A stretch of DNA of 64,000 nt from Micromonospora sp. NBC_01699. Its GTDB lineage: Bacteria > Actinomycetota > Actinomycetes > Mycobacteriales > Micromonosporaceae. Below the pieces are notes generated by a model. That model worked only from the letters and a program-made list of their open reading frames with translations. It did no database searches and had not been told where the DNA came from. Each line of letters starts with the position of its first letter. The first letter of the stretch is position 1. The position numbers and the translations under genes were made by a program. The DNA is taken from positions 4,340,001 through 4,404,000 of the forward strand of contig NZ_CP109199.1 in the NCBI RefSeq assembly GCF_036250065.1, in the 5' to 3' direction. Positions 12,753-37,071 of the stretch are shown here, in pieces.

Positions 12753-13667
12753 TCAGCCGGTCCGGGACTCCGGATCACCACCGACCACTACCGGCTGCCG
12801 CCGCCGTTGCCCGAGGTGCTGCCGGAACGAGTGGGTGACCGCCGCCGCCCACACCGCGAGGATCACCGCGTAGCAGCCGTACCGGACGGCGGACGGGGCG
12901 TCGAGCCAGTCGCTGCGGAGCAGGGTTCGGCTGTTGGTCAGGACGATCATGCCGCCGACCGCGGAGCCGAGGACCCGGGGCGGGACCCTGCGGACGAGCC
13001 AGGCCGCGATCGGTGCGGCGACCACGCCGCCGATCAGCAGCGCGAGGACCCAGCCGAGGTTGATGTTCTCCGCGCCGAGCCCGACCAGGAACCCGAGGCT
13101 CGCCGCGACGGCGACCAGGAACTCGCTGGTGTCGATCGATCCGATGACCTTTCGTGGTTCGAGCCGGCCGCTGGCCAGGATCGCCGGGGTGCCGATCGGC
13201 CCCCAGCCGCCGCCACCGGTGGCGTCGACGAAGCCGGCGAGCAGGCCCAGTGGACCGAGGAACCGCTTGCGCAGCGGCTTGCCCACGTTGTCCTTCGGCA
13301 GGTCGAAGGTGGTGAAGCGGACCAGGAGGTAGCCACCGAGGCCGAGCAGGATCAGCGACATGATCGGAGCCGCCGAGTCGGTGGAGAGGCTGGACAGGAG
13401 GGTGGCTCCGGCGAAGGCACCGATCGCGCCGGGGATGCCGATCCGGGCGACGACCTTCGGGTCGACGTTGCCGAACCGCCAGTGCGCGGCGCCCGAGGCG
13501 AGCGTGGTGCCGATCTCGGCGAGGTGGACCGTCGCCGAGGCGGCGGCCGCGTGGACGCCGACGGCGAGCAGCAGGGTCGTGGAGGTCACGCCGTAGGCCA
13601 TGCCGAGGCTGCCGTCGACCAGTTGCGCGCCGAGACCGACCAGGGCCAGCAGGAGGATTTTGCGCAT
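12753..13667 (-). CDS. TauE/SafE family sulfite/sulfonate permease-like protein
   Basis: A 304-residue membrane protein with about eight hydrophobic helices in two similar halves, 'GLGAQLVDGSLGMAYGVTS' at the N-terminus and 'GFVDATGGGGWGPIGTPAIL' in the middle, the paired glycine-rich motifs of TauE/SafE transporters. Members move sulfite, sulfoacetate or related anions and some are linked to cysteine or taurine metabolism. The gene diverges from the sulfated-lipid synthase genes, so it may serve the same pathway by importing sulfur or exporting sulfite. That link rests on position only. ATG at 13667 has a weak Shine-Dalgarno. Confidence 0.85.
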   Translation of the reverse strand: MRKILLLALVGLGAQLVDGSLGMAYGVTSTTLLLAVGVHAAAASATVHLAEIGTTLASGAAHWRFGNVDPKVVARIGIPGAIGAFAGATLLSSLSTDSAAPIMSLILLGLGGYLLVRFTTFDLPKDNVGKPLRKRFLGPLGLLAGFVDATGGGGWGPIGTPAILASGRLEPRKVIGSIDTSEFLVAVAASLGFLVGLGAENINLGWVLALLIGGVVAAPIAAWLVRRVPPRVLGSAVGGMIVLTNSRTLLRSDWLDAPSAVRYGCYAVILAVWAAAVTHSFRQHLGQRRRQPVVVGGDPESRTG

Positions 13668-14243
13668 GAGGGACCACCAGTTCGTCGGGGTGCAGGTGGG
13701 GAAGGGGTCGGAGGTTCCGGTCCGGGCGTGCGGCGACCGGGCCTTCTCGCGGCCGATTCACCTCCCTCCGATCGCTGTCCCGACCAATTAGCCGGGCCCG
13801 CCCGAACCATTTTCATACCCATCAGATAGGAATGGTTCTAGGAACCAAACCGACCGAACAAGAGTGCTTTCGCAATTCCGATCGGCCAACTAGATAGTGA
13901 TCGACATCACTCTTTTCGAGTGGCAGGTAACATTTCGGCAATCAAAGTAGGTCGATACGTAACAGTGCCGCCCAACACTCGCCAGATAACCGCCCACCTC
14001 GTGACCAGCTCCCGGCGACGGGCCGTTGACGGGCATCAAATGTCCGGCACACCGCCGGGGTCGCCGGAAAAACTGACCGCCAGGCGCCCTGGTTAGAGAG
14101 ATTTAACTAGCCTGTAACCAAGCTCCCCTAACTTAATTGGGGCGCGAGATCGATTAGCGCCTATTGACTGCGGGTCCCCTCGGTTGATCATTTGATCCAT
14201 TCTGTCGCGTCCGAGAACCGCCGCCCGATGAAGTGGGAGTCCG
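13668..14243 (+). promoter_or_regulatory. Divergent control region between tauE-like gene and megasynthase operon
   Basis: A 576-bp gene-free stretch, clearly AT-richer than its flanks from ~13790 to ~14230. It contains the GAACC repeats described separately, a GGTTA...TAACC inverted pair at 14091-14119, and CCCC-N10-GGGG near 14127-14144. This is the expected site of promoters for both directions and of a pathway-specific operator. No RNA family was recognised. The first synthase ATG at 14244 is preceded by a GTGGGAGT ribosome-binding site. Confidence 0.55.
13804..13846. promoter_or_regulatory. Candidate operator: three GAACC half-sites in inverted arrangement
   Basis: GAACCATT at 13804-13811 pairs perfectly with AATGGTTC at 13831-13838 (19-bp spacer). 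The latter overlaps GGTTC-TAG-GAACC at 13834-13846, a perfect 5-3-5 palindrome. Shared half-sites in the divergent region between the permease and synthase genes suggest a dimeric regulator site; the protein is unknown. Confidence 0.45.
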
Positions 14244-17200
14244 ATGAGCCCTGCACCGAACACGCGTGATCTGGTCATCGCCATCAGCGCCGGTAGCCTC
14301 CTCGAACCCAGTCCCCGGATCGCCACCGCCGCCCGCCGCGGCGGCGGCCACGGCGTACTGGACCTCGCCTCCGGCGACAGCTGGACACTCACCTGCCTGG
14401 CCCAGGCCACCGCCGGATCGGACGAGCCGATCGGCGTACGGGTGCCGGCCGGCTGCGCCGCCACCCCGGCCGACGTCGAGCGGGCCGGACACGGCCGGGT
14501 GGACCTCCTCGTCGTACCGCTGGACACGCCGTGGGACCTGGCCGCCGCCGTCGACCGGTACCGGGTGCTGGTCGAGGTGACCAGCCTCGACGAGGCCCAC
14601 CGGGCGGCCGCCGCCGGGGCGCACGGGCTCGTCGCGCGGGGCATGGAGGGCGGCGGAAAGGTCAGCGAACTCAGCTCGTTCGTCCTGCTCCAGCAACTGG
14701 CCGCGGCCGACGGCATCGACCTGCCGATCTGGGTGGCCGGCGGGATCGGTCCCCGTACCGCCGTCGCCTGCCTGATCGGCGGTGCGGCCGGGGTCGTCCT
14801 GGACAGCCAGCTCACCCTGATGCCCGAGGCCGAACTGCCCGACGACGTACGGCGCACCATCCGTCGGCTGGACGGGTCCGAGACGGTGCTGGTCGACGGC
14901 GTACGCGGGATCCGCCGGGGTGGACCGCACGACACCGCCTCGGCACTGCTGCCGATCGGCCAGGACGGCTGGCTCGCCGCCGTCTTCGCCCGACGCTGGC
15001 CGGACACCGCCGCCGCCGTACGCGCGATCCGGACCACGCTGCTCGAAGCGATCGCGCAACCGGGCGCCGGGGACGCGCTGGCGCCGGGCGCCGCCCTCGC
15101 CGACGCCCTCGCCGTACGGATACCCGTGGTGCAGGGCCCGATGACCCGGGTCAGCGACGAGGCCCCGTTCGCCGCCTCGGTCGCCGCCGACGGGGCGCTG
15201 CCCTTCGTCGCGCTCGCCCTGTCCGGTGCCGAACAGTCCCGCCGGGTGCTCCGGGAGACCGCCGACCGGCTGGGCGACCGGCCCTGGGGCGTCGGTGTGC
15301 TCGGCTTCGCACCGGACGAACTGCGCGCGGCACAGCTCGACGCGATCCGCGAGATCAAACCGGCCTGCGCGATCATCGCCGGTGGACGGCCGGCCCAGGC
15401 CACCGTGCTGGAGCAGGAGGGGATCAACACCTTCCTGCACGTACCCTCGCCGGGGCTGCTGCGGCAGTTCCTGCGCTCGGGAGCGCGTAAGTTCGTCTTC
15501 GAGGGCGCGGAGTGCGGCGGGCACGTCGGACCACGGGCGAGCTTCCCGCTGTGGGAGGCCCAACTGCTGGTCCTGGACGAGTTCCTGGCGGACTCGCCGG
15601 AGGACGCCGGGCAGTTGCAACTCCTGTTCGCCGGCGGCATCCACGACGCGCGGTCGGCGGCGATGGTCGCGGCGATGGCGGCACCGCTGACCGGGCGCGG
15701 AGCCCGGATCGGCCTGCTGATGGGGACCGCGTACCTGTTCACCCGCGAAGCTGTCGAGCAGGGCGCGATCCAGCCGCTGTTCCACCGCGAGGCGATCGCC
15801 GCGACCGGCACGTCGCTGCTGGAGACCGCCCCGGGACACGCCACCCGCTGCCTGCCCAGCCCGTTCGTCGACGACTTCCACGGCGTACGGGAGGAACTGG
15901 AGTCGGCCGGCGTCGAGAACCGCCGGGTGTGGGAGCAGTTGGAGCTGCTGAACGTCGGACGGCTGCGGATCGCCAGCAAGGGGGTGCGCCGCGAGGACAC
16001 CGGCCTGGTCGAGGTCGACGAGACGGTCCAGGCCGTCGAGGGGATGTTCATGGCCGGTCAGGTCGCCGTGCTGCGGCACGCACCGACCACGGTCGCCGAG
16101 CTGCACGCGCAGGTCACCACCGAGGCGGTGGAATACCACGCCGTACGGGCCGCCGCCCTGCGCGCCGAACTCACCCCGCCGGCCGTCCCGGTCGAGGAGC
16201 CGCCCGCTCCGCTGGACATCGCCATCGTCGGCATGTCCTGCGTCCTGCCCGGCTCCCCCGACCTGCACAGCTTCTGGCAGACCGTGCTCGGCGGCACCGA
16301 CGCGGTCACCGAGGTACCGGCCGACCGGTGGGACGTCGACAACTACTACGCACCCGAGGTGGGGCCCGGACAGACCGGCCGAATCAGTGTCTCCCGATGG
16401 GGCGGGTTCATCGACCCGGTGCCGTTCGACGCGATCCGCTACGGCATCCCCCCGGCGGCGCTGAGCAGCATCGACCCGACCCAGTTGCTCGCCCTGGAGG
16501 TGGCCCACCGGGCGCTGGTCGACGCCGGCTACCCGTACGACGGCGACGGTGTCGACCACAGCGCGACCGGGGTGGTGTTCGGGGCCGAGGCCGGCAGCGA
16601 CATGGGCCACGCCCAGACGTTGCGGACCATGCTCCCGGCCTACTTCGGTGACGTGCCCGCCGAGTTGGAGGACCTGCTCCCCACGGTCACCGAGGACAGC
16701 TTCCCCGGTGTGCTGGCCAACGTCATCGCCGGCCGGGTCGCCAACCGGCTCGACCTGGGCGGGCCCAACTACACCATCGACGCCGCCTGCGCCTCGTCAC
16801 TGGCCGCGATGGACGCCGCCTGCAAGGAACTCAGTGCCGGCAGCAGCGACCTGATGATCTGCGGTGGTGCCGACCTGCACAACGGCATCAACGACTACCT
16901 CATGTTCACCTCCGCGCACGCGCTCTCCCCGACCGGCCGCTGCCGTACGTTCGACAGCACCGGCGACGGCATCGCCCTCGGCGAGGGGGTGGCCTGCGTC
17001 GTCCTGAAGCGGTTGGCCGACGCCGAACGTGACGGCGACCGGATCTACGCCGTGATCAAGGGCGTCGGCAGTTCCAGCGACGGGCGGGCCCTCGGACTCA
17101 CCGCCCCGAGGGCGAGCGGGCAGCGGCGGGCGCTGGACCGGGCCTACCACCGTACCGGCATCTCGCCGAAGCAGATCGGCCTGGTCGAGGCGCACGGCAC

Positions 17201-20200
17201 CGGCACCGTCGTCGGTGACCGTACCGAACTGGAGACCCTGACCCGGTTCTTCGACGAGGCCGGCGCGGAACCCGGCAGTTGCGCGCTCGGCTCGGTGAAG
17301 TCGCAGATCGGGCACACCAAGTGCGCGGCCGGGCTGGCCGGCGTGATCAAGGCGAGCCTCGCGCTCTACACCGGGGTCAAGCCGCCCACGATCCACCTGA
17401 CCCGGCCCAACCCGGCGTGGAGCCCGGACCGCAGCCCGTTCACCTTCTACACCGGCGCCCGGCCGTGGGTCGCCCCGGCGGCGCAGCGGTTGGCCGGGGT
17501 GAGCGCGTTCGGCTTCGGCGGCACCAACTTCCACACCGTGCTGAGCGCGTACCCGAACAGCCCGGAACCCCGGCACACCCGGCGGACCTGGCCGGCGGAA
17601 CTGTTCTGCCTGCGCGGCGCCGACCGGGCCGCCGCCCGGGTCCGGGCCGGCAAGCTGGTCGAGAAGCTGTCGGCCCGCGACGAGTTGGGCCGGCCGTGGG
17701 CCCTGCGCGACCTGGCCGCCGCCCTGGCCGACGAGTCCGACCACCGCACCGGTCCGGTCCGGATCGCGATCGTCGCCCGCGACCGGGACGAACTCGCCAC
17801 CCTGCTCGACCGGGCGCTGGCCGGCGAGCACGATCCGGCGCGCGGCCTGGTCCAACCGTCGGACGACCGGGAGCCGGAACCGGGAAAGGTGGCCTTCCTC
17901 TTTCCCGGGCAGGGCAGCCAACGGCCGGGCGCGCTCGCCGAACTGTTCGTGGCGTTCCCCGAACTGCGGCACTACCTGCGCCTCGGCGCCGAGTGGGCGG
18001 ACCTGCTCTTCCCGCCGGCGGCGTTCGACGCCGAGACGACCCGCGCGCAGGAGGACCGGGTACGCGACACCCGGGTCGCCCAACCCGTACTGGGCATCGG
18101 CGGGCTCGCCGTCGACCACCTGTTCCGGCGGTTGGGCATCCGACCCGACCTGGCCGGCGGGCACAGCTACGGCGAGTTGGTGGCGCTCTGCGTGGCCGAC
18201 GCGTTCGACCCGGAGACCCTGCTCGCGCTCAGCCGGCAACGCGCCGACGCCATCCTCGCCGCCAGCGGCGACGATCCGGGCACCATGGCCGCGGTCACCG
18301 CCACCGCCGAGCAGGTGGGCGAGGTGCTCGCCGAGGCGGGGCTGGCCGGCGAGGTGGTGCTGGCCAACCGGAACGCGCCGACCCAGGTGGTGATCTCCGG
18401 CCCGACAGCCGCGGTCGGCTCGGCGGTGGCGGCACTGCGCGAGGCCGGGTTGTCGGCCCGGAGCCTCGCCGTGGCGTGCGCGTTCCACAGTCCGGTGGTG
18501 GCCGGCGGCACCGCCCGGTTCGCCGAGGCCCTGGCCGCCGTCCCGGTACGCGAACCGGCGATCCCGGTCTGGTCGAACCACACCGCCGCCCCGTACGCCG
18601 GTGCGCCCGACCGGGTACGCGACCAGCTCGCCGCGCAGATCGGCGCACCGGTCCGGTTCGTCGAACAGATCGAGTCGATGTACGCCAGCGGCGCCCGGAC
18701 GTTCGTGGAGACCGGCCCCGGTCAGGTCCTCACCAGGCTGGTCCGGGCCATCCTCGGCGACCGGCCGCACCTGGCGGTCGCCGCCGAGCCGCGTCCCGAC
18801 GAGGGGCTGCGCGGCTTCCTGCTGACCGTCGCCGAACTGGCCTGTGCCGGCGTACCGGTCCGGACCGGCTGGTTGTACCAGGGTCGCGACCCGATGGACC
18901 TCGGCGCGGCCCAGCCGACCCCACGTCCGATCTGGACCGTCGACGGCCAGCTCGTACGCGACCAGTTCGGAAACAGCCTGCCCGGCGGGATGACACCCCC
19001 ACGACGGATCAAGGAGTTGTCGATGACCGCATCGAACGGAACCGGCCTCGGTGGCCGGGACGGCCGGGACGAGTTGCTCAGCGAGTTCCTCCGGACCAGC
19101 CGGGACATGATCGCCTCGCAGCGGGACGTGATGCTCGCCTACTTCGGTGACAGCGCCGGCGGGCGGCTGGTGTGGCAACCGTCCCAGGCGTACCAGCCGG
19201 TGGTGTTGCCGGGCAACGGCGGCGAGGTCGCCCCGGTGACGACACCGGCGATGGTGGCCGCGCCCCTGGTCGCGGCCTCGATCGCGCCGGTGGGCGCGGT
19301 CGAGGTCGCCGCCGCGCCGGTGGCCGTGGCCGGTCTCGACTTCCAGACCGCGATCCTGGACGTGATCAGCGAACGCACCGGCTACCCGGTCGACCTCATC
19401 GAACTCGACCTCGACCTCGAAGCCGACCTCAGCATCGACTCCATCAAACGCGCCGAAGTCGCCGGCGAGGTCGCCGCCCGCCTCCGCCTCGCCGTCGAAG
19501 GCAACGAAGCCGAACTCGAAGACCTGGTCAAAGCCCGCACCGTACGCACCATGGTCGACTGGCTCAACCACAGGATGCGGTCCACGGCGACCGTGATCCA
19601 CACGACCGCCGTACTCGGCCCGGCGGGCGGCTCGGGGCGCGGCAACGGGATGGTCGCCACCAGCACGGTAGTGGTGGCCCGACCCGACTTCCAGACCGCG
19701 ATCCTGGACGTGATCAGCGAACGCACCGGCTACCCGGTCGACCTCATCGAACTCGACCTCGACCTCGAAGCCGACCTCAGCATCGACTCCATCAAACGCG
19801 CCGAAGTCGCCGGCGAGGTCGCCGCCCGCCTCCGCCTCGCCGTCGAAGGCAACGAAGCCGAACTCGAAGACCTGGTCAAAGCCCGCACCGTACGCACCAT
19901 GGTCGACTGGCTCAACCAGAAGATGCAGGGCGACGCCGCCCCGGCCGGATCCTCGGGGGCCGTCGCGCTCACCGCGTCGCCCGGAACCCGCGCGTTGACC
20001 GCGACGATCACGGCCACCGCGTCCGCCGTGACGACCGCCCGGCCGGCGGGCCTGGCCACGGCGCTCACCACGATCGGTACGACCATCGCACCGTCGACGG
20101 TCCCGACCGCCGACACCGTGGCCGCCACCGCACCGGCGCCGACCGCCGGCCGGGCCGGGATCACGCCGAAACGGCTCCTGCCACAGGCGACGGTGCTCGC

Positions 20201-21647
20201 GACGCCGCCCGGAACGGCTTCCGACGCCCCGCTCGCCGGGCAGCCCGTCGACGTACTCGCCGGCACCAGCTTCCTGATCACCGGAGCCAGCCCGGCGCTG
20301 GCGTACCTCGCCGAGTTCCTTCAGGAGCAGGGGGCGGGTGGGCAGACCGGTGTGCTGGACGAGAAGCAGGCCGGCCAACTCTCCGGGTTCGACGGGCTGA
20401 TCATGCTCGACGGGTTGACCGGCACCGGAGCCCCGCTGCTGCCCGAGGTCTTCCCGTTCCTCAAGCAGGCGCTCGCGGCCGGGCCACGCTGGCTGATCGC
20501 CGCCGGACCGATCGGCGGCGGCGACCGCACCGACGGGCTCGCCGGCCTGTTCCGTACGATCGCCAGGGAGTACCCGCAGGTCACAGCCAGGTACGTCGAG
20601 GTCGACGAGACGGCCGATCCGCAGCGGGTGGCCCGCCACCTGGTGGACGAACTGCTGGTCGGCGGGGACACACCGGTCGTCGTACGGGGAGACACCGAGC
20701 GGACCACGGTCGACCTCGCGCCGGTGACGCTCGGCGCGGTGGCGACCAGCGGCGCCGGGCCGGCCGGTGACGGCGCCGCCGAGGCCGCCGCGATCGGCCT
20801 GGACCGGGACTCGGTGGTCGTCCTGGTCGGCGGCGCCCGGGGGATCACGCCGTGGTTCGCCCGCGCGGTGGCCACCGCGAGCCGGTGCCGGATCGAGCTG
20901 GTCGGCCGTACCCCGCTGCCGGCCGGGCCGGAGGATCCGGACCTGGCGTCGGCCCGGGACAGGACCTCGTTGCGCGCGGCGCTGGCCCGCCGGGGCCTGC
21001 GGTCACCGGCGGAGATCGAACGCACCACACAGGCGGTGCTGGCCGCCCGCGAGGTCGAGGCGACCATCGCCGAGCTGCGGGAGCTGGGCAGCGAGGTGGG
21101 CTACCACGCCCTCGACGTACGGGACGCGGCGGCGACCCGGAGCCTGCTGCTGGACATCGAGCGGACGCAGGGCCGGGTCGACGGTGTGGTGTACGCCGCC
21201 GGTGTGATCGAGGACAAGCTGATCGCCGAGAAGGACCCGGAATCGTTCGCCCGGGTGTTCGGAACCAAGGTGGACGGTGCCCGGTCGGTGCTCGCCGGGC
21301 TGGACGGGTTGACCTCGGCGCCCCGCTTCGTGGTGCTGTTCGGCAGCATCGCCGCCGCCTACGGCAACCGGGGACAGGGCGACTACGCCGCGGCCAACGA
21401 CGCGATCGACGCGATCGGCGCCCGGTGGGCGGCCGGCACCGGCAACCGCTGCCTGACCGTGCACTGGGGTCCGTGGGCGCCGGGTGCCGGCCACGGCGGG
21501 ATGGTCAGCGAGGAGCTGAGCCGGGAGTACGCGCGCCGGGGCATCGAGCTGATCGATCCCGAGTCGGGCGCGTTCAGCCTGCTCGGCGAGCTGGCCTGGG
21601 GCGACCCGAAGATCAACTCCGTGGTCTACACCGCCTCCGGCTGGTGA
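14244..21647 (+). CDS. Iterative PUFA-type megasynthase: ER-KS-AT-ACP-ACP-KR
   Basis: A 2467-residue cytoplasmic synthase. Residues 1-~640 hold a nitropropane-dioxygenase/PfaD-like flavin enoylreductase region (first a degenerate half, then 'PVVQGPMTRVSD' ~295 and 'GAECGGHVGPR' ~421). The ketosynthase spans ~654-1100 with Cys849, His984 and His1024. The acyltransferase (~1216-1530) has FPGQGSQ and nucleophile Ser1308 in GHSYGE. Two ACPs follow with phosphopantetheine sites Ser1733 and Ser1849 in 'SIDSIKR', the form typical of PUFA synthases. A ketoreductase lies at ~2188-2460 with 'GGARGITP' and Tyr2381. All catalytic residues look intact. With the next protein it would build a long acyl chain iteratively. 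An ER fused at the N-terminus is unusual compared with classical PfaA/PfaD. Confidence 0.9.
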   Translation: MSPAPNTRDLVIAISAGSLLEPSPRIATAARRGGGHGVLDLASGDSWTLTCLAQATAGSDEPIGVRVPAGCAATPADVERAGHGRVDLLVVPLDTPWDLAAAVDRYRVLVEVTSLDEAHRAAAAGAHGLVARGMEGGGKVSELSSFVLLQQLAAADGIDLPIWVAGGIGPRTAVACLIGGAAGVVLDSQLTLMPEAELPDDVRRTIRRLDGSETVLVDGVRGIRRGGPHDTASALLPIGQDGWLAAVFARRWPDTAAAVRAIRTTLLEAIAQPGAGDALAPGAALADALAVRIPVVQGPMTRVSDEAPFAASVAADGALPFVALALSGAEQSRRVLRETADRLGDRPWGVGVLGFAPDELRAAQLDAIREIKPACAIIAGGRPAQATVLEQEGINTFLHVPSPGLLRQFLRSGARKFVFEGAECGGHVGPRASFPLWEAQLLVLDEFLADSPEDAGQLQLLFAGGIHDARSAAMVAAMAAPLTGRGARIGLLMGTAYLFTREAVEQGAIQPLFHREAIAATGTSLLETAPGHATRCLPSPFVDDFHGVREELESAGVENRRVWEQLELLNVGRLRIASKGVRREDTGLVEVDETVQAVEGMFMAGQVAVLRHAPTTVAELHAQVTTEAVEYHAVRAAALRAELTPPAVPVEEPPAPLDIAIVGMSCVLPGSPDLHSFWQTVLGGTDAVTEVPADRWDVDNYYAPEVGPGQTGRISVSRWGGFIDPVPFDAIRYGIPPAALSSIDPTQLLALEVAHRALVDAGYPYDGDGVDHSATGVVFGAEAGSDMGHAQTLRTMLPAYFGDVPAELEDLLPTVTEDSFPGVLANVIAGRVANRLDLGGPNYTIDAACASSLAAMDAACKELSAGSSDLMICGGADLHNGINDYLMFTSAHALSPTGRCRTFDSTGDGIALGEGVACVVLKRLADAERDGDRIYAVIKGVGSSSDGRALGLTAPRASGQRRALDRAYHRTGISPKQIGLVEAHGTGTVVGDRTELETLTRFFDEAGAEPGSCALGSVKSQIGHTKCAAGLAGVIKASLALYTGVKPPTIHLTRPNPAWSPDRSPFTFYTGARPWVAPAAQRLAGVSAFGFGGTNFHTVLSAYPNSPEPRHTRRTWPAELFCLRGADRAAARVRAGKLVEKLSARDELGRPWALRDLAAALADESDHRTGPVRIAIVARDRDELATLLDRALAGEHDPARGLVQPSDDREPEPGKVAFLFPGQGSQRPGALAELFVAFPELRHYLRLGAEWADLLFPPAAFDAETTRAQEDRVRDTRVAQPVLGIGGLAVDHLFRRLGIRPDLAGGHSYGELVALCVADAFDPETLLALSRQRADAILAASGDDPGTMAAVTATAEQVGEVLAEAGLAGEVVLANRNAPTQVVISGPTAAVGSAVAALREAGLSARSLAVACAFHSPVVAGGTARFAEALAAVPVREPAIPVWSNHTAAPYAGAPDRVRDQLAAQIGAPVRFVEQIESMYASGARTFVETGPGQVLTRLVRAILGDRPHLAVAAEPRPDEGLRGFLLTVAELACAGVPVRTGWLYQGRDPMDLGAAQPTPRPIWTVDGQLVRDQFGNSLPGGMTPPRRIKELSMTASNGTGLGGRDGRDELLSEFLRTSRDMIASQRDVMLAYFGDSAGGRLVWQPSQAYQPVVLPGNGGEVAPVTTPAMVAAPLVAASIAPVGAVEVAAAPVAVAGLDFQTAILDVISERTGYPVDLIELDLDLEADLSIDSIKRAEVAGEVAARLRLAVEGNEAELEDLVKARTVRTMVDWLNHRMRSTATVIHTTAVLGPAGGSGRGNGMVATSTVVVARPDFQTAILDVISERTGYPVDLIELDLDLEADLSIDSIKRAEVAGEVAARLRLAVEGNEAELEDLVKARTVRTMVDWLNQKMQGDAAPAGSSGAVALTASPGTRALTATITATASAVTTARPAGLATALTTIGTTIAPSTVPTADTVAATAPAPTAGRAGITPKRLLPQATVLATPPGTASDAPLAGQPVDVLAGTSFLITGASPALAYLAEFLQEQGAGGQTGVLDEKQAGQLSGFDGLIMLDGLTGTGAPLLPEVFPFLKQALAAGPRWLIAAGPIGGGDRTDGLAGLFRTIAREYPQVTARYVEVDETADPQRVARHLVDELLVGGDTPVVVRGDTERTTVDLAPVTLGAVATSGAGPAGDGAAEAAAIGLDRDSVVVLVGGARGITPWFARAVATASRCRIELVGRTPLPAGPEDPDLASARDRTSLRAALARRGLRSPAEIERTTQAVLAAREVEATIAELRELGSEVGYHALDVRDAAATRSLLLDIERTQGRVDGVVYAAGVIEDKLIAEKDPESFARVFGTKVDGARSVLAGLDGLTSAPRFVVLFGSIAAAYGNRGQGDYAAANDAIDAIGARWAAGTGNRCLTVHWGPWAPGAGHGGMVSEELSREYARRGIELIDPESGAFSLLGELAWGDPKINSVVYTASGW
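19337..19570 (+). repeat. ACP repeat copy 1 (234 bp, identical to copy 2)
   Basis: The coding sequence of the first ACP domain matches 19685-19918 base for base over 234 bp (offset 348). Within the repeat nearly all Glu codons are GAA and nearly all Leu codons CTC, unlike the GAG/CTG preference of the flanking domains. Confidence 0.95.
19685..19918 (+). repeat. ACP repeat copy 2
   Basis: Second copy of the 234-bp ACP unit. The 114-bp linker between copies and the sequence just after each copy are not conserved, so the identical part is limited to the ACP fold. This points to recent duplication or ongoing gene conversion. Confidence 0.95.
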
Positions 21648-28896: not shown

Positions 28897-30723
28897 GTGA
28901 AACCATTCCGGATGTCGGGCCGGCGACCGCTCGCCGCGGCCGCCGTACTGGGACTGCTGTACGTGCTGGCGGCACCGTCGTCGGTCACCGCCGCGCCGAC
29001 GGACACGGACGCGCGGGGGTCGGCCGGACACCCGCCGACGTACGAGCGCAAGCTGCTCGGGAAGGGCACCCCGGACGAGTGCTTCGCCGGTGTCGGGCTG
29101 GCCTATCCGACCGGTCCCCCGTGCGCGACCGGCCAGCCGAAGGTGAACCAGTCGTACCTGTGGGGCATGACCCAGACCGAGCAGAGCCTCTGGTTCGGCA
29201 CCGGAGCGAACGTCAACTGCCTGACCAGCGGGCGCAACCTGCGCAACACGACGCCGAACCTGAACGACGACTGGGTGTGCGAGTACGGCGAGAGCCAGAT
29301 CGTGAAGCGCAACCCGACCCTGCCGGCCACCCTCGGCGACCACCGTCCGCCCCGGTTGTACACCTACGACAAGCGGGCCAAGCGGTTGACGGAAAAGACC
29401 GACCTGATCAAGAACGCCTCCACCACCGACGCCAACCGGCTGGCCTCGACCGCCGGGATCCGGGCCGCCGGCACCCATCAGGGGGTGGCGTTCCTCGGCG
29501 GGCCGGCGCTGGGCGAGAGCATCAACCTGTTCGCCTTCGACACCCACACCGGCGGCTTCCTCGGCTCGGTCAACCTGCCGGCGTACGGCAACATCCGTCA
29601 CTTCGTGGTGGCCGACGGGGCGCTCTACGCGGGTGTCGGGGTGGGCGCGAACGGCGGCAACCGGGGCCACGTGCTGCGCTGGACCGGTAGTAAGAGCAAC
29701 CCGTTCAGTTTCGTCGAGGTCGCGAACCTGCCGGCCCAGGCGGCGGACCTGACCGTGCACGACGGACGGATCTTCGTGACGACCTGGACGGGTTCCGGCG
29801 ACGACGCCCTCGCCGCCGCCGTTCCGGGCAGCACCGACGAGCCGCTGCCCGGCGTCGCCGGGGTGTGGATGAGCCCGAAGCTGTCGCAGGGGGAACGCGG
29901 CCTCACCCCGGCCGACGCGAACGGCTGGACCCAGGTCTGGACGGTGGACCAGTACGAGCCGGACCCGACCATCGCCCGCACCTACGCCCTCGGTGGGCTG
30001 GCCTCGTTCAACGGCTACCTCTACTGGGGCACGATGCACGTACCGATGAAGGCGACCACCGTACACATCGCGACCTTTCCGCCGGCGAACGAGGCCGCGC
30101 TGCGCGCCTCGGTGCGCGGCACCCAGCGGGCGATCAGCATCTTCCGGGGGAAGAGCTTCGGCGACCGCCACCAGCGGGTGGACCTGCTGTACGGGGCACC
30201 GCAGCTGCCCGCGTACGACCCGGCCGGGAACGGCGGCGCGGGCGCCTGGGCTCCGGTCCCGACCGGTTACACCCCGCTCTACGGCCCGTCCGGCATGGGT
30301 AATCCGTACAACAACTACACCTGGAAGATGGCGGTGGCGGGCGGGAAACTGTACGTCGGCACCATGGACTGGAGTTACATCTCCAAGGACCTGGGTCAGG
30401 AGACGGCGAGCCGGTTGGGGGTCAGCGGCCCGGCGGCGGCGGAGTTCGGTGACGCCTCGGTGCTGGCCGACGATCCGCCGCCGCCCCCGGCCCCGGTGTA
30501 CGGCGGCGACCTGTTCGTCTTCGACTCGACCAGCAAGCCGGCCCGGGTGGTGGACGACAGCGGGCTCGGCAACTATCTGAACTACGGGATCCGCAACATG
30601 GTCGCCGACGGGACGACCCTGTACCTGGGCATGGCGAATCCGATGAACCTGCGTACGGACCCGGACGACGACGTTCCCGAGGGTGGTTGGGAACTGATCC
30701 GGCTGAGCATGCAGCGCTGTTGA
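28897..30723 (+). CDS. Large secreted protein of unknown function in the lipid locus
   Basis: A 608-residue protein. I chose GTG at 28897 (GAGAGG eight bases upstream) over TTG at 28894. A signal peptide is clear: KPFRMSGRRP, a hydrophobic core, then 'SSVTAAP'. The mature protein has recurring 'YVG/YAG...G' and 'LxVGTMDW' strand motifs suggestive of a beta-propeller, and a few cysteines (e.g. 'DECFAG', 'PPCATG'). I do not recognise a named family. Its position between the synthase operon and the export/sulfur operon suggests a surface role, but there is a hairpin on each side, so it may be transcribed alone. Confidence 0.75.
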   Translation: MKPFRMSGRRPLAAAAVLGLLYVLAAPSSVTAAPTDTDARGSAGHPPTYERKLLGKGTPDECFAGVGLAYPTGPPCATGQPKVNQSYLWGMTQTEQSLWFGTGANVNCLTSGRNLRNTTPNLNDDWVCEYGESQIVKRNPTLPATLGDHRPPRLYTYDKRAKRLTEKTDLIKNASTTDANRLASTAGIRAAGTHQGVAFLGGPALGESINLFAFDTHTGGFLGSVNLPAYGNIRHFVVADGALYAGVGVGANGGNRGHVLRWTGSKSNPFSFVEVANLPAQAADLTVHDGRIFVTTWTGSGDDALAAAVPGSTDEPLPGVAGVWMSPKLSQGERGLTPADANGWTQVWTVDQYEPDPTIARTYALGGLASFNGYLYWGTMHVPMKATTVHIATFPPANEAALRASVRGTQRAISIFRGKSFGDRHQRVDLLYGAPQLPAYDPAGNGGAGAWAPVPTGYTPLYGPSGMGNPYNNYTWKMAVAGGKLYVGTMDWSYISKDLGQETASRLGVSGPAAAEFGDASVLADDPPPPPAPVYGGDLFVFDSTSKPARVVDDSGLGNYLNYGIRNMVADGTTLYLGMANPMNLRTDPDDDVPEGGWELIRLSMQRC

Positions 30724-30835: not shown

Positions 30836-31873
30836 ATGACTGAAATCAGTAGATCTTGGACAGGTTGGGTGGGCCGGCTCGACCGGTGCGGCCGTACCCC
30901 GTGGCAACGTCCGCTCGCGGTCCTGCCGCTCGTCGCGGTGCTCGCCCTGACGGCCGGTTGCGGACTGTTCCGGGACACCCCGCAGCGGCCCGAGGCCGGT
31001 GCGGTGGCGACCGCGCCGGCCGGCACGTCGACCCACACCGTCGTGGTCGACGGGCAGGACCGCGACTTCCGGCTCTACCAGCCGGCGAACCTCGCCCGGT
31101 CGACCCCGGTGCCGCTCGTGGTCATGCTGCACGGCGCGCTCGGTACGGGCAGCCAGGCCGAAACCTCGTACGGCTGGAACGCCGAGGCGGACCGGGAGGG
31201 CTTCGTCGTCGCCTACCCGGACGGGCTCAGCCGCACCTGGGCGGTGGCACCGGACTGCTGCGGTCCACCGGCCCGTGACGGGGTGGACGACGTCGCCTTC
31301 ATCCGGCAACTGGTCGACACCGTGGCCGACCGGCTCCCGGTCGACCGCGACCGGGTCTACGCCACCGGGATCTCCAACGGCGGAATGCTCGCCTACCGCC
31401 TGGCCTGCGACACGAACCTGTTCGCCGCGATCGGGCCGGTGGCGGCGACCCAGCTCGGCCCGTGCCCGTCACCCGCACCGACCTCGGTGATCCACATCCA
31501 CGGTACGGCGGACCGGACCGTGCCGTACGCCGGCGGACCGGGCCGACGGGACAACGGCGGAACCGGCCGCAACCCCGTCCGGATGGACGGTCCGGCAACA
31601 CCCGAACTGCTCGCACGGTGGCGCACGATCGGCGGCTGCGACGCGCCGGTGACCACCACCTCGGGCCCGGTCACCACCTCGGCCGCCGGTTGCCCCGATG
31701 GGCGGGCGGTCGAGCTGATCACCGTCGCCGACGCCGGCCACCAGTGGCCCGGTGCCGCCGGCCCCGCGCCCGAGGCACGACGCCTGCTCGACCTGGATCC
31801 GCCCGCGACCGCGCCGAACGCCACCGACACCATCTGGCGCTTCTTCGAGGCACACCACCGCACCGGCGGCTGA
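30836..31873 (+). CDS. LpqC-like esterase lipoprotein (PHB depolymerase family)
   Basis: A 345-residue protein. Basic N-terminus, hydrophobic stretch and lipobox 'LTAGC' (~residues 38-42) mark a lipoprotein. The mature part is an esterase of the PHB-depolymerase/feruloyl-esterase class: 'VVMLHGALGTG' (oxyanion region), 'GISNGGMLAYRLACD' with the nucleophile Ser, 'IHGTADRTVPY' with the acid and 'ADAGHQWPG' with the His. It would act outside the membrane. It opens the operon that includes the ABC exporter and sulfate-activation genes (48-bp gap), so it may process or attach an exported ester lipid; this role is inferred. Confidence 0.82.
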   Translation: MTEISRSWTGWVGRLDRCGRTPWQRPLAVLPLVAVLALTAGCGLFRDTPQRPEAGAVATAPAGTSTHTVVVDGQDRDFRLYQPANLARSTPVPLVVMLHGALGTGSQAETSYGWNAEADREGFVVAYPDGLSRTWAVAPDCCGPPARDGVDDVAFIRQLVDTVADRLPVDRDRVYATGISNGGMLAYRLACDTNLFAAIGPVAATQLGPCPSPAPTSVIHIHGTADRTVPYAGGPGRRDNGGTGRNPVRMDGPATPELLARWRTIGGCDAPVTTTSGPVTTSAAGCPDGRAVELITVADAGHQWPGAAGPAPEARRLLDLDPPATAPNATDTIWRFFEAHHRTGG

Positions 31874-31921: not shown

Positions 31922-33058
31922 ATGCCGAGCAGTGGTGGCACCCCGGCCGCGGTCGAGGTCGTCGACCTCGTCAAACGCTATCCGGGAAGCAAGACCCCGG
32001 CGGTGGACGGGCTGTCGTTCACGGTGGCCCGTGGCGAGATCTTCGGGCTGCTCGGGCCGAACGGTGCCGGCAAGTCCACCACCATCGGCATCCTCACCAC
32101 CCGGCTGCGGGCAACGGCGGGCCGGGCCGTGGTCGGCGGGGTCGACGTGCTCGGTGACCCGGTCGCGGCCCGCGCCCAGTTGGCCGTCGTCCCCCAGCAC
32201 AACAACCTGGACCGGGCGCTGACCCCACGGCAGAACCTGCTGTTCCATGCGGCGTACCACGGCGTCGGCCGCGCCGTACGCAACACCCGCGCGGACGAGC
32301 TGCTGGACCGCTTCGGCCTCGCCGACCGGGCGGACAAGCGGATCGAGGCGTACTCGGGCGGCATGGCGCAGCGGCTGATGATCGCCCGCGCGCTGATCCA
32401 CGAGCCGGCGGTGCTCTTCCTCGACGAACCCACCAACGGCCTGGACCCGCAGTCCCGGCGCCTCATCTGGGGCCGGATCCGGGAGATGCGCGGACGCGGC
32501 GTGACGGTGGTGCTGACCACCCACCAGATGAACGGGGCCGCCGCCCTGGTCGACCGGGTCGGCATCGTCGACCACGGCCGGCTGCTCACCCTGGACACAC
32601 CGGGCAACCTGGTCCGGGGCCTCGGCGGACGCTCGATCCTCGACCTGACCGTCACGCCGGCCGGGCCCGACGATCCGGACGAGCTGTTGCGGACGCTGTC
32701 GGAGGTTCCCGGCGTACGCAAGGGTGAACGCCTCGCCCCGGCGGCGCCGCCGGCCGCCGGGCCGGGTGCCGGGCGACCGGGCCCGGATTTCGGCGCCGGG
32801 CTCGGTCTCGGCTCGGGCGCGCCGGCCGCCGCACTGGCCGCGCTGGCCCGACAGCGGTCGGTGGCCACGCTCGCCCCCGACCCCGGCGGGCGCCAACGGG
32901 TACGGATCCGGCTGCACCTCGCCACCGATCCGGCGGCCGTGCTCGGGCCGGCGCTCGCCGTGCTGACCACCCGGTCGGCGAAGCTCACCGACGTGCACAT
33001 CGCCGAGCCGAGCCTCGAAGACGTCTTCATCGGACTGACCGGAAGGGACCCACGGTGA
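31922..33058 (+). CDS. ABC exporter ATP-binding protein (DrrA-like)
   Basis: A 378-residue ATPase with Walker A 'GPNGAGKSTTIGIL' (~47), signature 'YSGGMAQRLMIARALI' (~147), Walker B 'VLFLDEPTNGLD' (~167) and the switch His in 'LTTHQMNGA'. The C-terminal extension includes a Gly/Ala/Pro-rich insertion (~270-320) not essential to the fold. DrrA-like ATPases drive two-component ABC-2 exporters of drugs, polyketides and lipids. Its stop overlaps the permease start (GTGA). Export of the sulfated product is the likely role given the operon. Confidence 0.9.
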   Translation: MPSSGGTPAAVEVVDLVKRYPGSKTPAVDGLSFTVARGEIFGLLGPNGAGKSTTIGILTTRLRATAGRAVVGGVDVLGDPVAARAQLAVVPQHNNLDRALTPRQNLLFHAAYHGVGRAVRNTRADELLDRFGLADRADKRIEAYSGGMAQRLMIARALIHEPAVLFLDEPTNGLDPQSRRLIWGRIREMRGRGVTVVLTTHQMNGAAALVDRVGIVDHGRLLTLDTPGNLVRGLGGRSILDLTVTPAGPDDPDELLRTLSEVPGVRKGERLAPAAPPAAGPGAGRPGPDFGAGLGLGSGAPAAALAALARQRSVATLAPDPGGRQRVRIRLHLATDPAAVLGPALAVLTTRSAKLTDVHIAEPSLEDVFIGLTGRDPR

Positions 33059-33885
33059 CCGACCTCGAAGCCCCACCGGTGCCGGCGGCGATCTCCACGC
33101 CGGCACCCCCGCGACCCCGCGCCCACCGGGCGTTCCTGGCCATCCTGCGCCGGGACCTGCTGGTCACCGGCAAGGAACTCTGGGTCATCCTGGTCCAGGT
33201 CGGCCTCACCCCGCTGTTCATGCTCTTCGTCTTCGTCAAGGTGCTCGGCGGGCAGGGCATCGTCACCCGGGACTTCGCCGACCTGTTCCTGCCCGGCATC
33301 ATCGCGCTGGCCGCGCTCACCACCGCGCTACAGAGCGTCGCGCTGCCGCTGGTCAAGGAGTTCGGTTTCACCCGCGAGATCGAGGACCGGCTGCTCGCCC
33401 CGCTGTCGACCAACCTGGTGGCGGTGGGGAAACTGGTGGTCGCGATGCTGCGCGGACTTATCGCCGCCGCCCTCATCTACCCGCTGGGCGCGCTGATGGT
33501 CGGCTCGGCCCCCTGGCAACCCGAACGGCTGCCGATGGTCCTGCTGACGGTCCTGCTCGGCGGTTGGATCGGCGGCGGGATCGGCATGACGCTGGCGACG
33601 ATCCTGCCCATCCAACGGATCAACGTCACGTTCTCGCTGGTCATTACCCCGATCATCTGGACCGGTTGCATCCACTACCCGTGGCCGCGGCTCTCCTCGA
33701 TGCCCTGGTTCCAGGCGGTCACCGCCGTGAACCCGATGACCTACGTCTCCGAAGGGGTACGCGGGGCGATGCTGCCCGAGGTCGCGCACATACCGGCCTG
33801 GATCTGTCTTCTGGTGCTGAGCGCGGTGGCCGCCACGGTCACCGCCACCGGCGTACGTAGTTTCAGTCGGCGTGCCGTTCAATGA
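33055..33885 (+). CDS. ABC-2 type exporter permease (DrrB-like)
   Basis: A 276-residue inner-membrane protein with six predicted helices and the ABC-2 features 'DLFLPGIIALAALTTALQS', 'FTREIEDRLLAPLSTNLVAV' and a conserved 'NPMTYVSEGVRGAMLP' near the end. The start GTG overlaps the ATPase stop by 4 bp, so both subunits are made together. It is followed 37 bp later by cysQ, which ties export and sulfonucleotide metabolism into one transcript. Confidence 0.9.
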   Translation: MTDLEAPPVPAAISTPAPPRPRAHRAFLAILRRDLLVTGKELWVILVQVGLTPLFMLFVFVKVLGGQGIVTRDFADLFLPGIIALAALTTALQSVALPLVKEFGFTREIEDRLLAPLSTNLVAVGKLVVAMLRGLIAAALIYPLGALMVGSAPWQPERLPMVLLTVLLGGWIGGGIGMTLATILPIQRINVTFSLVITPIIWTGCIHYPWPRLSSMPWFQAVTAVNPMTYVSEGVRGAMLPEVAHIPAWICLLVLSAVAATVTATGVRSFSRRAVQ

Positions 33886-33922
33886 GCGGCACGGTCAACG
33901 TCTCCCCCGGAGGTGCTCGTCG

Positions 33923-34786
33923 ATGAACGTGCTGGAACCCCCCAGCTCCGTTGCTCCCACGTCGGACGGTGACTTCGCCGCCTGGTTGGCCGAGCGGGCC
34001 GGCCGGTTGCTGCTGCGGGTACGCGCCGAACACGGTCACGACGACCCGGCCGCGTTGAAGCGCGCGGGTGACCAAGCGTCGCACCACCTGCTGCGGGACG
34101 AACTGGCCCGGCACCGGGGCACCGACGCGGTGCTCTCGGAGGAGGACGACGACGCCCGGCGGGCATGGGCCGACGGTACGGCCGGAGCCGCACCGGACCG
34201 GCTCGGCGCCGACCGGGTGTGGATCATCGACCCGTTGGACGGGACGCGGGAGTTCTCCGAGCCGGGCCGGTCGGACTGGGCGGTGCACGTGGCGCTCTGG
34301 GCGCGTACCGCCGCGACGGAGCATCGGCTCGTCGCGGGCGCCGTCGCCCTGCCCGCCCAGCACCGCACCCTCGGCACCGAGAATCCCCCGCCCCGACCGG
34401 CGGCGCCGGATGGGCGGACGATCCGGTTGGCGGCGAGTCGTAGTCGGCCGCCGGCGTTCCTGACGGAGTTGGCGGAGGAGGTGGGTGCGGAGTTGGTGCC
34501 GATGGGGTCGGCGGGTGCGAAGATCGCGGCGGTGGTCGGTGGTGAGGTGGACGCGTACGTGCATGCGGGTGGTCAGTACGAGTGGGATTCGGCCGCGCCG
34601 GTGGCTGTGGCGACGGCCACGGGTCTGCACGCTTCCCGAATCGACGGTTCTGCGCTGAGATACAACGAGGCTGACCCCCGGCTGCCCGATCTGGTGGTCT
34701 GCCGGCCGGAACTGGCCGAGCCACTGCTCGCCGCACTGCGCCGGCACCTGTCCCTCGTGCCGGCGACGACCACGGCAGCCGGCTGA
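33923..34786 (+). CDS. cysQ: 3'(2'),5'-bisphosphate nucleotidase (PAP phosphatase), CysQ-like
   Basis: A 287-residue member of the inositol-monophosphatase/CysQ family. Metal ligands appear in 'AVLSEEDDD' and 'WIIDPLDGTREF', with the late 'YEWDSAAPVAVA' motif. The enzyme converts PAP to AMP, relieving sulfotransferase inhibition, and can also degrade PAPS. ATG at 33923 follows GGAGG at 33909-33913. From about 34420 the codon choice changes sharply to TTG, GGT and NNG, continuing into cysD. It sits directly between the exporter and cysD, as expected for a sulfation pathway. Confidence 0.9.
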   Translation: MNVLEPPSSVAPTSDGDFAAWLAERAGRLLLRVRAEHGHDDPAALKRAGDQASHHLLRDELARHRGTDAVLSEEDDDARRAWADGTAGAAPDRLGADRVWIIDPLDGTREFSEPGRSDWAVHVALWARTAATEHRLVAGAVALPAQHRTLGTENPPPRPAAPDGRTIRLAASRSRPPAFLTELAEEVGAELVPMGSAGAKIAAVVGGEVDAYVHAGGQYEWDSAAPVAVATATGLHASRIDGSALRYNEADPRLPDLVVCRPELAEPLLAALRRHLSLVPATTTAAG

Positions 34787-34791
34787 CCGCG

Positions 34792-35718
34792 ATGGCAGAC
34801 GTGGACATGACTACCCCGGCGGCGTACCGGGTGTCGCATCTGGATGCTCTGGAGGCGGAGAGCATCTTCGTCATGCGTGAGGTGGTGGCCGAGCTGGAGC
34901 GTCCGGTGTTGCTGTTCTCGGGCGGTAAGGATTCGATAGTGATGCTCCGGTTGGCGCAGAAGGCGTTCGCTCCGGGCAGGATCCCGTTTCCGGTGATGCA
35001 CGTCGACACGGGGCACAACTTCGCCGAGGTTCTGGAGTATCGGGACCGGCGGGTGGTCGAGTTGGGGTTGCAGTTGGTGGTGGCGTCGGTGCCGGAGGCG
35101 TTGGAGTCGGGGTTGGTGCGGGAGTCCGCTGATGGGATGCGGAACCGGATCCAGACTCCGGTGTTGTTGGCGGCGGTGGAGAAGTACCGGTTCGATGCCC
35201 TGTTCGGGGGTGCGCGTCGGGATGAGGAGAAGGCGCGGGCGAAGGAACGGGTGTTCAGCTTCCGGGACGATTTCGGGCAGTGGGATCCGAAGAACCAGCG
35301 GCCGGAGTTGTGGTCGTTGTACAACGGTCGCCATCATCCGGGTGAGTCGATCCGGGTGTTCCCGTTGTCGAACTGGACCGAGCTCGACATCTGGCACTAC
35401 ATCGCCAGGGAGCGGTTGGCGTTGCCGTCGATCTACTACGCGCATGAGCGTGAGGTGATCGAGCGGGACGGGATGTTGTACGCGGTGAACGAGTTCATCG
35501 CCCCGCGTGGTGGTGAGGTGCCGTTTACCGAGCGGGTCAGGTACCGGACGGTCGGTGACGCCTCCTGCACGGCGGCGGTCCGTTCGGTCGCCGACTCGGT
35601 GGAGTTGGTGATCGAGGAGGTCGCCGCGACGAGGATCACCGAGCGTGGGGCGACCCGTGGTGATGACCGGGTCAGCGAGGCCGCGATGGAAGACCGCAAA
35701 CGGGAAGGCTACTTCTGA
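34792..35718 (+). CDS. cysD: Sulfate adenylyltransferase subunit 2
   Basis: A 308-residue ATP sulfurylase small subunit: PP-loop 'LLFSGGKDSIVMLRLA', 'FPVMHVDTGHNF', 'DALFGGARRDEEKARAKERV' and 'LSNWTELDIWHYI' are all classical. With CysN it makes APS from sulfate and ATP. The start is 5 bp after cysQ, and the stop overlaps the cysN ATG (TGATG). Leu is mostly TTG and many codons end in T or G, unlike genes on both sides, suggesting separate ancestry or conversion from another copy. The family assignment is certain; a dedicated role for sulfation rests on the operon. Confidence 0.95.
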   Translation: MADVDMTTPAAYRVSHLDALEAESIFVMREVVAELERPVLLFSGGKDSIVMLRLAQKAFAPGRIPFPVMHVDTGHNFAEVLEYRDRRVVELGLQLVVASVPEALESGLVRESADGMRNRIQTPVLLAAVEKYRFDALFGGARRDEEKARAKERVFSFRDDFGQWDPKNQRPELWSLYNGRHHPGESIRVFPLSNWTELDIWHYIARERLALPSIYYAHEREVIERDGMLYAVNEFIAPRGGEVPFTERVRYRTVGDASCTAAVRSVADSVELVIEEVAATRITERGATRGDDRVSEAAMEDRKREGYF

Positions 35719-37019
35719 TGAGCACCACAGCGGTCACCGAGGTGGTTCCGGTCGAGGGTCGGGCGATGGACCTGTTGCGTTTCGCCACCGCCGGGAGTGT
35801 CGACGACGGGAAGTCGACCCTGATCGGCCGACTGTTGTACGACACGAAGTCGTTGTTCACCGACCAGTTGGCCGCCGTCGAGGCGGTCAGTGCGGCTCGG
35901 GGGGACGAGTACACGAACCTGGCGTTGCTCACCGACGGTCTGCGGGCCGAGCGGGAGCAGGGCATCACGATCGATGTGGCGTACCGGTACTTCGCCACCC
36001 CACGGCGGAAGTTCATCATCGCCGACACCCCCGGGCACGTGCAGTACACCAGGAACATGGTCACCGGTGCGTCGACCGCCGACCTGGCGTTGATCCTGGT
36101 CGACGCCCGTAAGGGCCTGGTCGAGCAGTCCCGGCGGCACGCGTTCCTGTGCTCGTTGCTGCGGGTGCCGCACCTGGTGCTGTGTGTCAACAAGATGGAC
36201 CTGGTCGACTGGTCCCAGGACGTCTTCGAACGGATCAGCGACGAGTTCACCGCGTTCGCCGCGAAACTCGAAGCACCCGACCTGACCGTGGTCCCGATCT
36301 CCGCCCTGCACGGCGACAACATCGTCACCCGGTCGGAACACACCCCCTGGTACGAGGGCCCGTCGCTGCTGCACCACCTCGAACGGGTCCACATCGCCTC
36401 CGACCGGAACCTGGTCGACGTCCGGTTCCCGGTCCAGTACGTGATCCGCCCGCAGTCGACCACGGTCACCGACTACCGCGGCTACGCCGGACAGGTCGCC
36501 TCCGGGGTACTCAAACCCGGCGACGAGGTGATGGTCCTGCCGTCGGGGTTCACCAGCAGGATCGCCGGCATCGACACCGCCGACGGACCCGTGACCGAGG
36601 CGTTCCCACCGATGTCGGTCACCGTCCGCCTCACCGACGAGATCGACATCTCCCGCGGCGACCTGATCTGCCGACCGAACAACGCCCCGACCATCGCCCA
36701 GGACATCCAAGCGATGATCTGCTGGATGGACGAAAGCCGGCCGCTACGCCCCGGTGCGAAATACGCCATCAAACACACCACCCGCACCGCCCGGACCGTC
36801 ATCCGCGAACTCCACTACCGCCTCGACGTCAACTCACTACACCGCGACGAGACCGCCACCGAACTCGGCCTCAACGAAATCGGCCGGATCCGACTCCGGA
36901 CCACGATCCCACTCCTCGCCGACGAATACCGCCGCAACCGCACCACCGGCGGCTTCATCCTCATCGACGAGACCACCAACCGCACCGTCGCCGCCGGCAT
37001 GATCGTCGACACCAACTAA
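35718..37019 (+). CDS. cysN: Sulfate adenylyltransferase subunit 1 (GTPase)
   Basis: A 433-residue elongation-factor-like GTPase: 'ATAGSVDDGKSTLIGRLL' (P-loop), 'EQGITIDVAYRYF', 'DTPGHVQYTRNM' and 'CVNKMDLVDW'. It powers APS formation by CysD. The protein ends after the beta-barrel domains; the APS-kinase (CysC) domain of fused CysNC proteins is absent. The 5' half shares the TTG/GGT-rich codon style of cysD, whereas the 3' half (from ~36230) is strongly C-ending, a mosaic pattern. The gene ends the operon just before a strong hairpin. Confidence 0.95.
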   Translation: MSTTAVTEVVPVEGRAMDLLRFATAGSVDDGKSTLIGRLLYDTKSLFTDQLAAVEAVSAARGDEYTNLALLTDGLRAEREQGITIDVAYRYFATPRRKFIIADTPGHVQYTRNMVTGASTADLALILVDARKGLVEQSRRHAFLCSLLRVPHLVLCVNKMDLVDWSQDVFERISDEFTAFAAKLEAPDLTVVPISALHGDNIVTRSEHTPWYEGPSLLHHLERVHIASDRNLVDVRFPVQYVIRPQSTTVTDYRGYAGQVASGVLKPGDEVMVLPSGFTSRIAGIDTADGPVTEAFPPMSVTVRLTDEIDISRGDLICRPNNAPTIAQDIQAMICWMDESRPLRPGAKYAIKHTTRTARTVIRELHYRLDVNSLHRDETATELGLNEIGRIRLRTTIPLLADEYRRNRTTGGFILIDETTNRTVAAGMIVDTN

Positions 37020-37032
37020 CCCACCAGCAGAA

Positions 37033-37071
37033 AGGGGCCCTTCCCGTCGTGTTGCGATGGGAAGGGCCCCT
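37033..37071. terminator. Strong 13-bp hairpin between convergent genes
   Basis: AGGGGCCCTTCCC at 37033-37045 pairs perfectly with 37059-37071 around a 13-nt loop. It lies 14 bp past the cysN stop and 37 bp past the end of the leftward gene at 37108, so it can serve as a bidirectional terminator. Confidence 0.8.

Follow-up and report, generated by a model that had tools for sequence, protein, structure and literature searches.

Mycobacterial sulfolipid-1 is made by a lipid synthase together with a sulfotransferase (ST), a combination that recurs in the locus described here. Secondary lipid clusters of the Pfa type have, in the available text of their description (PMC3098273, Shulse & Allen 2011), an enoyl reductase (ER), ketosynthase (KS), acyltransferase (AT), tandem acyl carrier proteins (ACPs), ketoreductase (KR), dehydratase (DH) and 4'-phosphopantetheinyl transferase (PPT), all of which the present locus shares. 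It lies in Micromonospora sp. NBC_01699, within the window, the 64,000-nucleotide stretch of DNA that was analysed (4.34-4.40 Mb of an 8.28 Mb single-contig genome), and joins such a synthase to an ST and to sulfur genes. The original prediction held that no characterised product was known for this gene set, which stands in so far as neither a described cluster of this make-up nor a sulfated lipid or ST with this synthase type was found in the open-access literature, although ST clusters with cassettes for 3'-phosphoadenosine 5'-phosphosulfate (PAPS) (PMC12135136, PMC7081687) and Pfa-type lipid clusters (PMC3098273) are known from the accessible portions of these papers. Here it is proposed, with somewhat better than even confidence, that the locus is an exported sulfated secondary-lipid cluster in which the ST replaces the sugar-attaching enzyme of related clusters, its product being predicted. 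Counted in favour of this reading is the adp cluster, where, by the accessible text, a dedicated PAPS cassette raised sulfation (PMC12135136).

The genes that carry this reading are, on the + strand, megasynthase 2 (KS-AT-DH-PPT by Pfam; 21751..26556), a discrete ACP (26607..26954; Pfam PP-binding 2.9e-9), an alpha/beta hydrolase (26951..27790; Pfam Abhydrolase_1 8.3e-32, with a GNSFGG motif) and the ST (27817..28779; Pfam Sulfotransfer_3 1.8e-15), gene identities throughout being taken from an open reading frame (ORF) listing and from Pfam and NCBIfam profile scans. With the DH-PPT region as query, 59 of the 300 family genomes, counting the own genome, gave a match to the synthase; identity was at least 64% in 50 genomes (51 rows), and the downstream stretch was read for 45 of these 51 ST-type rows (all except G024, G154, G175, G215, G251 and G261), six loci ending at contig ends (G264, G182, G265, G275, G094 and G102). 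The locus counts take in partial matches, but none below 45% identity or below 12% coverage. Megasynthase 2, ACP, hydrolase and ST are contiguous in 45/45 ST-type loci, and the arrangement is beyond chance because of these synteny counts across relatives. The set of eight loci with the ST numbered L118 to L125 is entirely from Micromonospora.

Related loci without the ST have another enzyme behind the hydrolase. Four loci were read from the nine low-identity family genomes. In a search across the class, 54 of 394 genomes proved positive for the synthase, two of them belonging to the own family; 16 loci outside the family were then read over 20 kb and 28 as short stretches, 15 of the short ones coming from genomes that also supplied a long one. 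The 20 loci from other families (16) and from low-identity family members (4) have the ACP, the hydrolase and then a UDP-type glycosyltransferase (GT), and the one GT protein that was scanned has UDPGT and EryCIII-like domains. Under the thresholds the counts for these loci are low (ACP in 3/20, hydrolase in 8/20), and both genes are present in 20/20 without them. The ST and the GT exclude each other, as 45/45 ST loci have no GT match, 20/20 others have the GT and no ST, and 0/65 have both; the locus studied, having no GT match, is not a GT-type cluster. The start of a GT is also visible in 21/28 short class-wide loci, and an ST in 0/28, the other seven ending too early or being ambiguous. The ST-type synthases fall into a single clade (30 rows vs 28 others; SH-like approximate likelihood ratio test, SH-aLRT, 100), and this clade sits among the remaining branches when the tree is rooted at its midpoint. 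The tree has no outgroup, carries a long-branch warning for the non-ST rows and includes some among those 28 that were not checked for a GT. The ST thus looks like a head-group switch, and the synthase lineage is read, from these sequences, as having undergone a single replacement of the GT by the ST.

The sulfotransferase itself has the motifs and the fold of PAPS-dependent enzymes, the fold being taken from a low-confidence model (mean predicted local distance difference test, pLDDT, 58.9; TM-scores of about 0.4). The motifs GRCGST and YLTR...TA-SMS are near-invariant in 39 ST orthologues, and we take them to be the PAPS-binding motifs. Foldseek placed the CurM ST first (E 2e-5), followed by STF9, STF1 and, in fourth place, the ST of the cyanobacterial olefin synthase (OLS; E 6.6e-4), with tyrosylprotein sulfotransferases also among the matches of the model. 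A profile search gave weak matches throughout, with Teg14 first (E 0.0078), the CurM ST second (E 0.015) and the OLS ST lower (E 0.7). The enzyme would, judging from its sequence, move sulfate onto the lipid. Sulfotransferases act on many acceptors, and STF9, STF1 and the tyrosylprotein enzymes among the fold matches would also suit an ST that acts on a sugar, a phenol or a protein made elsewhere, giving a sulfated glycolipid or similar; this is improbable in our judgement, as the two GT queries found no relative in the 45 ST stretches, other acceptor-making genes not having been searched systematically.

The same matches bear on a different role for sulfate. As in CurM and OLS, the ST could sulfate the beta-hydroxyl of the acyl-ACP, after which the hydrolase would release and decarboxylate the chain with loss of the sulfate, leaving a terminal alkene. 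The ST and hydrolase genes adjoin, both leaving-group enzymes appear in the Foldseek and (weakly) in the profile results, and PAPS supply and removal of 3'-phosphoadenosine 5'-phosphate (PAP) would be required equally. However, the 20 GT loci, which have no ST, contain the hydrolase as well, so that it is not tied to the ST; the ST occupies the slot of the head-group enzyme; it is encoded by an ORF of its own, and in the megasynthases Pfam found no AMP-binding domain of the fatty acyl-AMP ligase (FAAL) type; and ATP-binding cassette (ABC) export with secreted enzymes would be ill-suited to a plain hydrocarbon. An alkene product is considered unlikely, though not negligibly so, and retention of the sulfate on an exported lipid is preferred. 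Elsewhere in the same genome, in G000:C1:2120500-2140400 (L201), several ST-type matches are clustered at about 5.9-15.8 kb, two of the genes being confirmed by Pfam and polysaccharide-like genes being seen by eye around them; this is possibly a sulfated polysaccharide locus.

Two genes of the locus follow the ST and accompany it in relatives. The first encodes a 609-aa beta-propeller-like protein (28894..30723, +) with an N-terminal secretion signal by eye, which has neither a Pfam match nor a significant sequence match in PDB and whose structure model is poor (pLDDT 56.5), with matches to generic propeller folds alone. The second encodes a polyhydroxybutyrate-depolymerase-like esterase (30836..31873, +; Pfam Esterase_PHB 1.3e-9) with a lipoprotein signal by eye. 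The propeller-like gene is present in 40/45 ST loci and the esterase in 39/45, and both in 0/20 GT loci. All genes named in the original prediction are present with their stated domains, and the members of its two blocks are as listed, but the propeller-like gene between the blocks had been omitted. In genus g29, loci L073, L074 and L075 have two to three tandem propeller-like genes between ST and esterase, by eye, at about 3-8 kb in cluster orientation.

Behind the esterase come an ABC exporter ATPase (31922..33058, +; Pfam ABC_tran 1.9e-32), an ABC-2 type permease (33055..33885, +; Pfam ABC2_membrane 3.1e-17), a CysQ-like phosphatase (33872..34786, +; Pfam Inositol_P 4.2e-25) and the small and large subunits of sulfate adenylyltransferase, CysD (34792..35718, +; TIGR02039 5.4e-131) and CysN (35718..37019, +; TIGR02034 8.5e-172), both above the model cut-offs. 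The ABC pair is found in 27/45 ST loci, cysQ in 28/45, cysD in 30/45 and cysN in 26/45, the cysD count including partial matches at contig ends (G264, G182) and a half-length match on the opposite strand in G219. That last match lies beyond the esterase, at about 6.6 kb in cluster orientation (L114), and is possibly the remnant of a lost cysDN. In L065 (G102), cysD and cysN come right after the esterase, no ABC pair or cysQ precedes the contig end, and the genome has four cysD matches. The linkage that had been predicted for the relatives holds for the ST, which follows synthase, ACP and hydrolase in every ST locus read, and holds in part for the sulfur genes; since cysD was not found within the fetched stretch of 15/45 ST loci, APS (adenosine 5'-phosphosulfate) supply is an addition rather than part of the core.

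A TauE/SafE family permease (12753..13667, -; Pfam TauE 3.9e-41) diverges from the lipid genes and is proposed to transport sulfate or a related anion, with both the direction and the substrate presumed. Among 33 upstream stretches (own locus included), 31 of ST type, it was found in 14/31 ST loci, and these were 14/14 with adjacent cysQ/cysD vs 0/17 without (Fisher p 3.8e-9, related genomes being treated as independent). On the + strand beside it are two long overlapping ORFs, 11300-12637 and 12120-13829, the first of which has no Pfam match. Genus g29 has a different linkage, with no full second cysQDN beside the cluster and a housekeeping-type cysQDN at a distance of about 11-14 kb beyond the ST in 9/11 loci read. 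In L073, GlmU-like, phosphoribosyl pyrophosphate synthetase and peptidyl-tRNA hydrolase genes (Pfam) lie between ST and cysQDN, and this is the kind of place that holds the second copy in the studied genome, where cysDN at 7.29 Mb is preceded by a cysQ and has as close neighbours a gene for a galactokinase and a GlmU-like one, with an NTP transferase domain and hexapeptide repeats.

Duplicated sulfur genes go together with the cluster. At least two cysD matches were found in 23/50 cluster genomes vs 14/250 others (Fisher p 1.1e-11), G264 counting as having none at the limit used, even though the beginning of a cysD is present where its locus runs into a contig end. A tree of 48 cysQ rows separates 19 cluster copies, as a single clade, from the remaining 29 (SH-aLRT 99), nine g29 rows having been placed in the housekeeping group by location before the clade was tested. 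The history of cysN differs: cluster and housekeeping copies are sisters in 11/14 genomes that have both, and their nucleotide identity is 92.6-100% in 12/14 genomes vs 84-92% in five species pairs. The three non-sister genomes are G285, at 92.6%, and G206 and G228, at 82-83%; the clusters of the latter two group with the genus of the studied genome, which suggests, on tree position, transfer of the whole cluster. For cysQ, the copies in the two places are merely 72.6-85.5% identical in 13 genomes with both.

In the studied genome the two cysDN copies share 99.8% identity across 2,196 bp (four mismatches by blastn), in a tract (34817..37012, also by windowed identity) that begins just within cysD and stops 7 bp short of where the cysN ORF ends. 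Together with 34501-34650, inside cysQ, it forms a mosaic of identical and diverged stretches relative to the other cysQDN copy, as gene conversion predicts. Recurrent gene conversion would keep cysDN near-identical to the housekeeping copy in many species, and it is preferred over repeated fresh duplication because the adjoining cysQ stays old. It may further be supposed that only the lipid genes and the ST are a unit, and that TauE, the ABC pair and cysQDN are mere neighbours serving ordinary sulfur assimilation, which would agree with the loci lacking a nearby cysD and with the near-identity of the CysDN proteins of the two copies. This is highly improbable in view of the separate cysQ clade, the association with copy number, the co-occurrence of TauE and the second, different linkage in g29, and the sulfur genes are here read as belonging to the cluster where they occur.

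The predicted sulfur supply is present as far as CysD and CysN are concerned; there is no APS kinase in the locus, therefore the block yields APS and not PAPS. The sole APS kinase match in the genome is a 531-aa ORF at 0.83 Mb, which also has PUA_2 and a partial ATP-sulfurylase domain covering only positions 2-128 of 212 of the profile. With this fusion and the second cysDN, cysQDN as the only sulfate activation set of the cell was rejected. CysH, encoded at 7.03 Mb in the same genome, has a Cys pattern that is presumably that of APS reductases, and as an APS reductase would leave PAPS chiefly for sulfotransferases. The cluster CysQ, which is proposed from its sequence to remove PAP, has intact catalytic motifs such as DPLDGT, and its 78 bits (TIGR01331 8e-22) are below the 229 equivalog cut-off.

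Megasynthase 1 (14244..21647, +) has an NMO-type ER, KS, AT and KR by Pfam, and two tandem ACPs recognised by a DSIK motif at aa 1732 and 1848. The first ACP matched PP-binding when scanned alone (1.5e-6), and the whole-protein Pfam scan (E 0.001) listed neither. By eye, a stretch of about 75 residues is near-identical between the two ACPs (about 19300-19960), which would suit a recent duplication or homogenisation. With KS, AT, tandem ACPs and KR in one protein and a PfaD/NMO-like ER, the synthase belongs with the Pfa-type secondary lipid synthases; the PfaA subfamily model gives 950 bits, below its 1010 cut-off. In megasynthase 2, Pfam finds KS, AT, PS-DH and PPT, and the KS Cys, AT Ser and DH Asp motifs are present by pattern. 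A polyunsaturated fatty acid (PUFA) synthase product (Types A/B) was rejected, the dehydratase being of the PS-DH type with no FabA domain by Pfam, and the single KS with its active-site Cys differs from the PUFA arrangement of a KS and chain length factor. From 14244 to 37019 every gene is on the + strand with intergenic gaps of at most 114 bp, which makes one or two operons possible; terminator-like sites (5 vs 3.0, sd 1.5, in shuffles) and promoter-like sites (0 vs 0.5) were of no help in delimiting them.

Taken together, the two megasynthases would, by their domains and motifs, build a long acyl chain iteratively on ACPs armed by the PPT domain, and the discrete ACP and the hydrolase, here proposed to be the thioesterase, would hand over and release it. 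The ST would use PAPS to sulfate a hydroxyl group on the chain, probably one that the KR had produced, and the product would leave through the ABC pair, with the propeller protein and the esterase lipoprotein probably acting outside the cell. TauE would import sulfate or a related anion, CysDN would make APS, the single APS kinase of the genome, fused to its ATP-sulfurylase domain, would turn it into PAPS, and the cluster CysQ would clear the PAP left by the ST. The claim that a sulfated lipid is made and exported is partly supported: its link of synthase to sulfation is strong, being seen in every ST locus read, with the cluster cysQ, cysDN and TauE in a large subset, and the product is predicted to keep the sulfate.

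Several observations weigh against this reading. The product is predicted from genes alone, the specificity of CysQ rests on sequence, and the nearest solved folds of the ST, from a poor model, include two enzymes for which sulfate serves as the leaving group. The ABC pair was not found in 18/45 ST loci, the loci without cysD include one cut by a contig end, and the APS kinase lies outside the locus, while further ST genes elsewhere in the genome place a demand on PAPS beyond the cluster. Copy numbers of cysD were counted by eye and are matches rather than intact genes, which can be pieces of one gene (G182); in 4/23 multi-cysD cluster genomes (G060, G175, G219, G251) no intact copy was seen beside the cluster, which was unread there in G175 and G251; and both Fisher tests assume an independence that related genomes do not have.

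A wider proposal, for which belief and doubt are evenly balanced, is that after the switch from GT to ST the cluster gained the propeller and esterase genes and captured a sulfur set in several genera, with converted cysDN and diverging cysQ, and that it makes a new class of exported sulfolipids with surface or developmental roles. It would show clearly how primary sulfur genes can be taken over by a secondary pathway and afterwards homogenised by gene conversion in many species, the neighbouring cysQ escaping. Clusters differing in one slot, GT or ST, predict a glycolipid or a sulfolipid from related chains, in culturable Micromonospora.

Compared with sulfolipid-1, the scanned block proteins include no Pap-type acyltransferase or MmpL, and a pathway of that type was rejected, megasynthase 1 scoring 456 against the 2400 cut-off of the SL-1 Pks2 model. 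Among the Pfa-type clusters, the PPT motif VSLAH fits by eye the hShxH form of Types M-T as given in the accessible text (PMC3098273), and a relation to the actinobacterial Type M is possible by this motif alone; the term sulfotransferase is absent from that text, and the related class-wide loci found here carry a GT. The cyanobacterial OLS and CurM have a PAPS-dependent ST of matching fold that works with a thioesterase, but there, by the available text, both are inside the polyketide synthase (PKS) pathway protein, with a FAAL in OLS (PMC3903477), while here they are separate ORFs. The PAPS operon of notonesomycin, compared in the available text with that of azinomycin, likewise has CysD/CysN-like genes and an ST in a polyketide cluster, for a 32-membered macrolactone and with the APS kinase within the cluster (PMC7081687). 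The adp cluster of the sulfated adipostatins, with a synthase for a lipid-like product, an ST and dedicated CysD and CysN, is similar in these respects, and differs in its Type III PKS, its resorcinol acceptor and its APS kinase, the accessible portion making no mention of cysQ (PMC12135136). Relative to such a dedicated PAPS cassette of ST, CysD, CysN and APS kinase, the Micromonospora locus has CysD and CysN, leaves out the APS kinase and adds CysQ.

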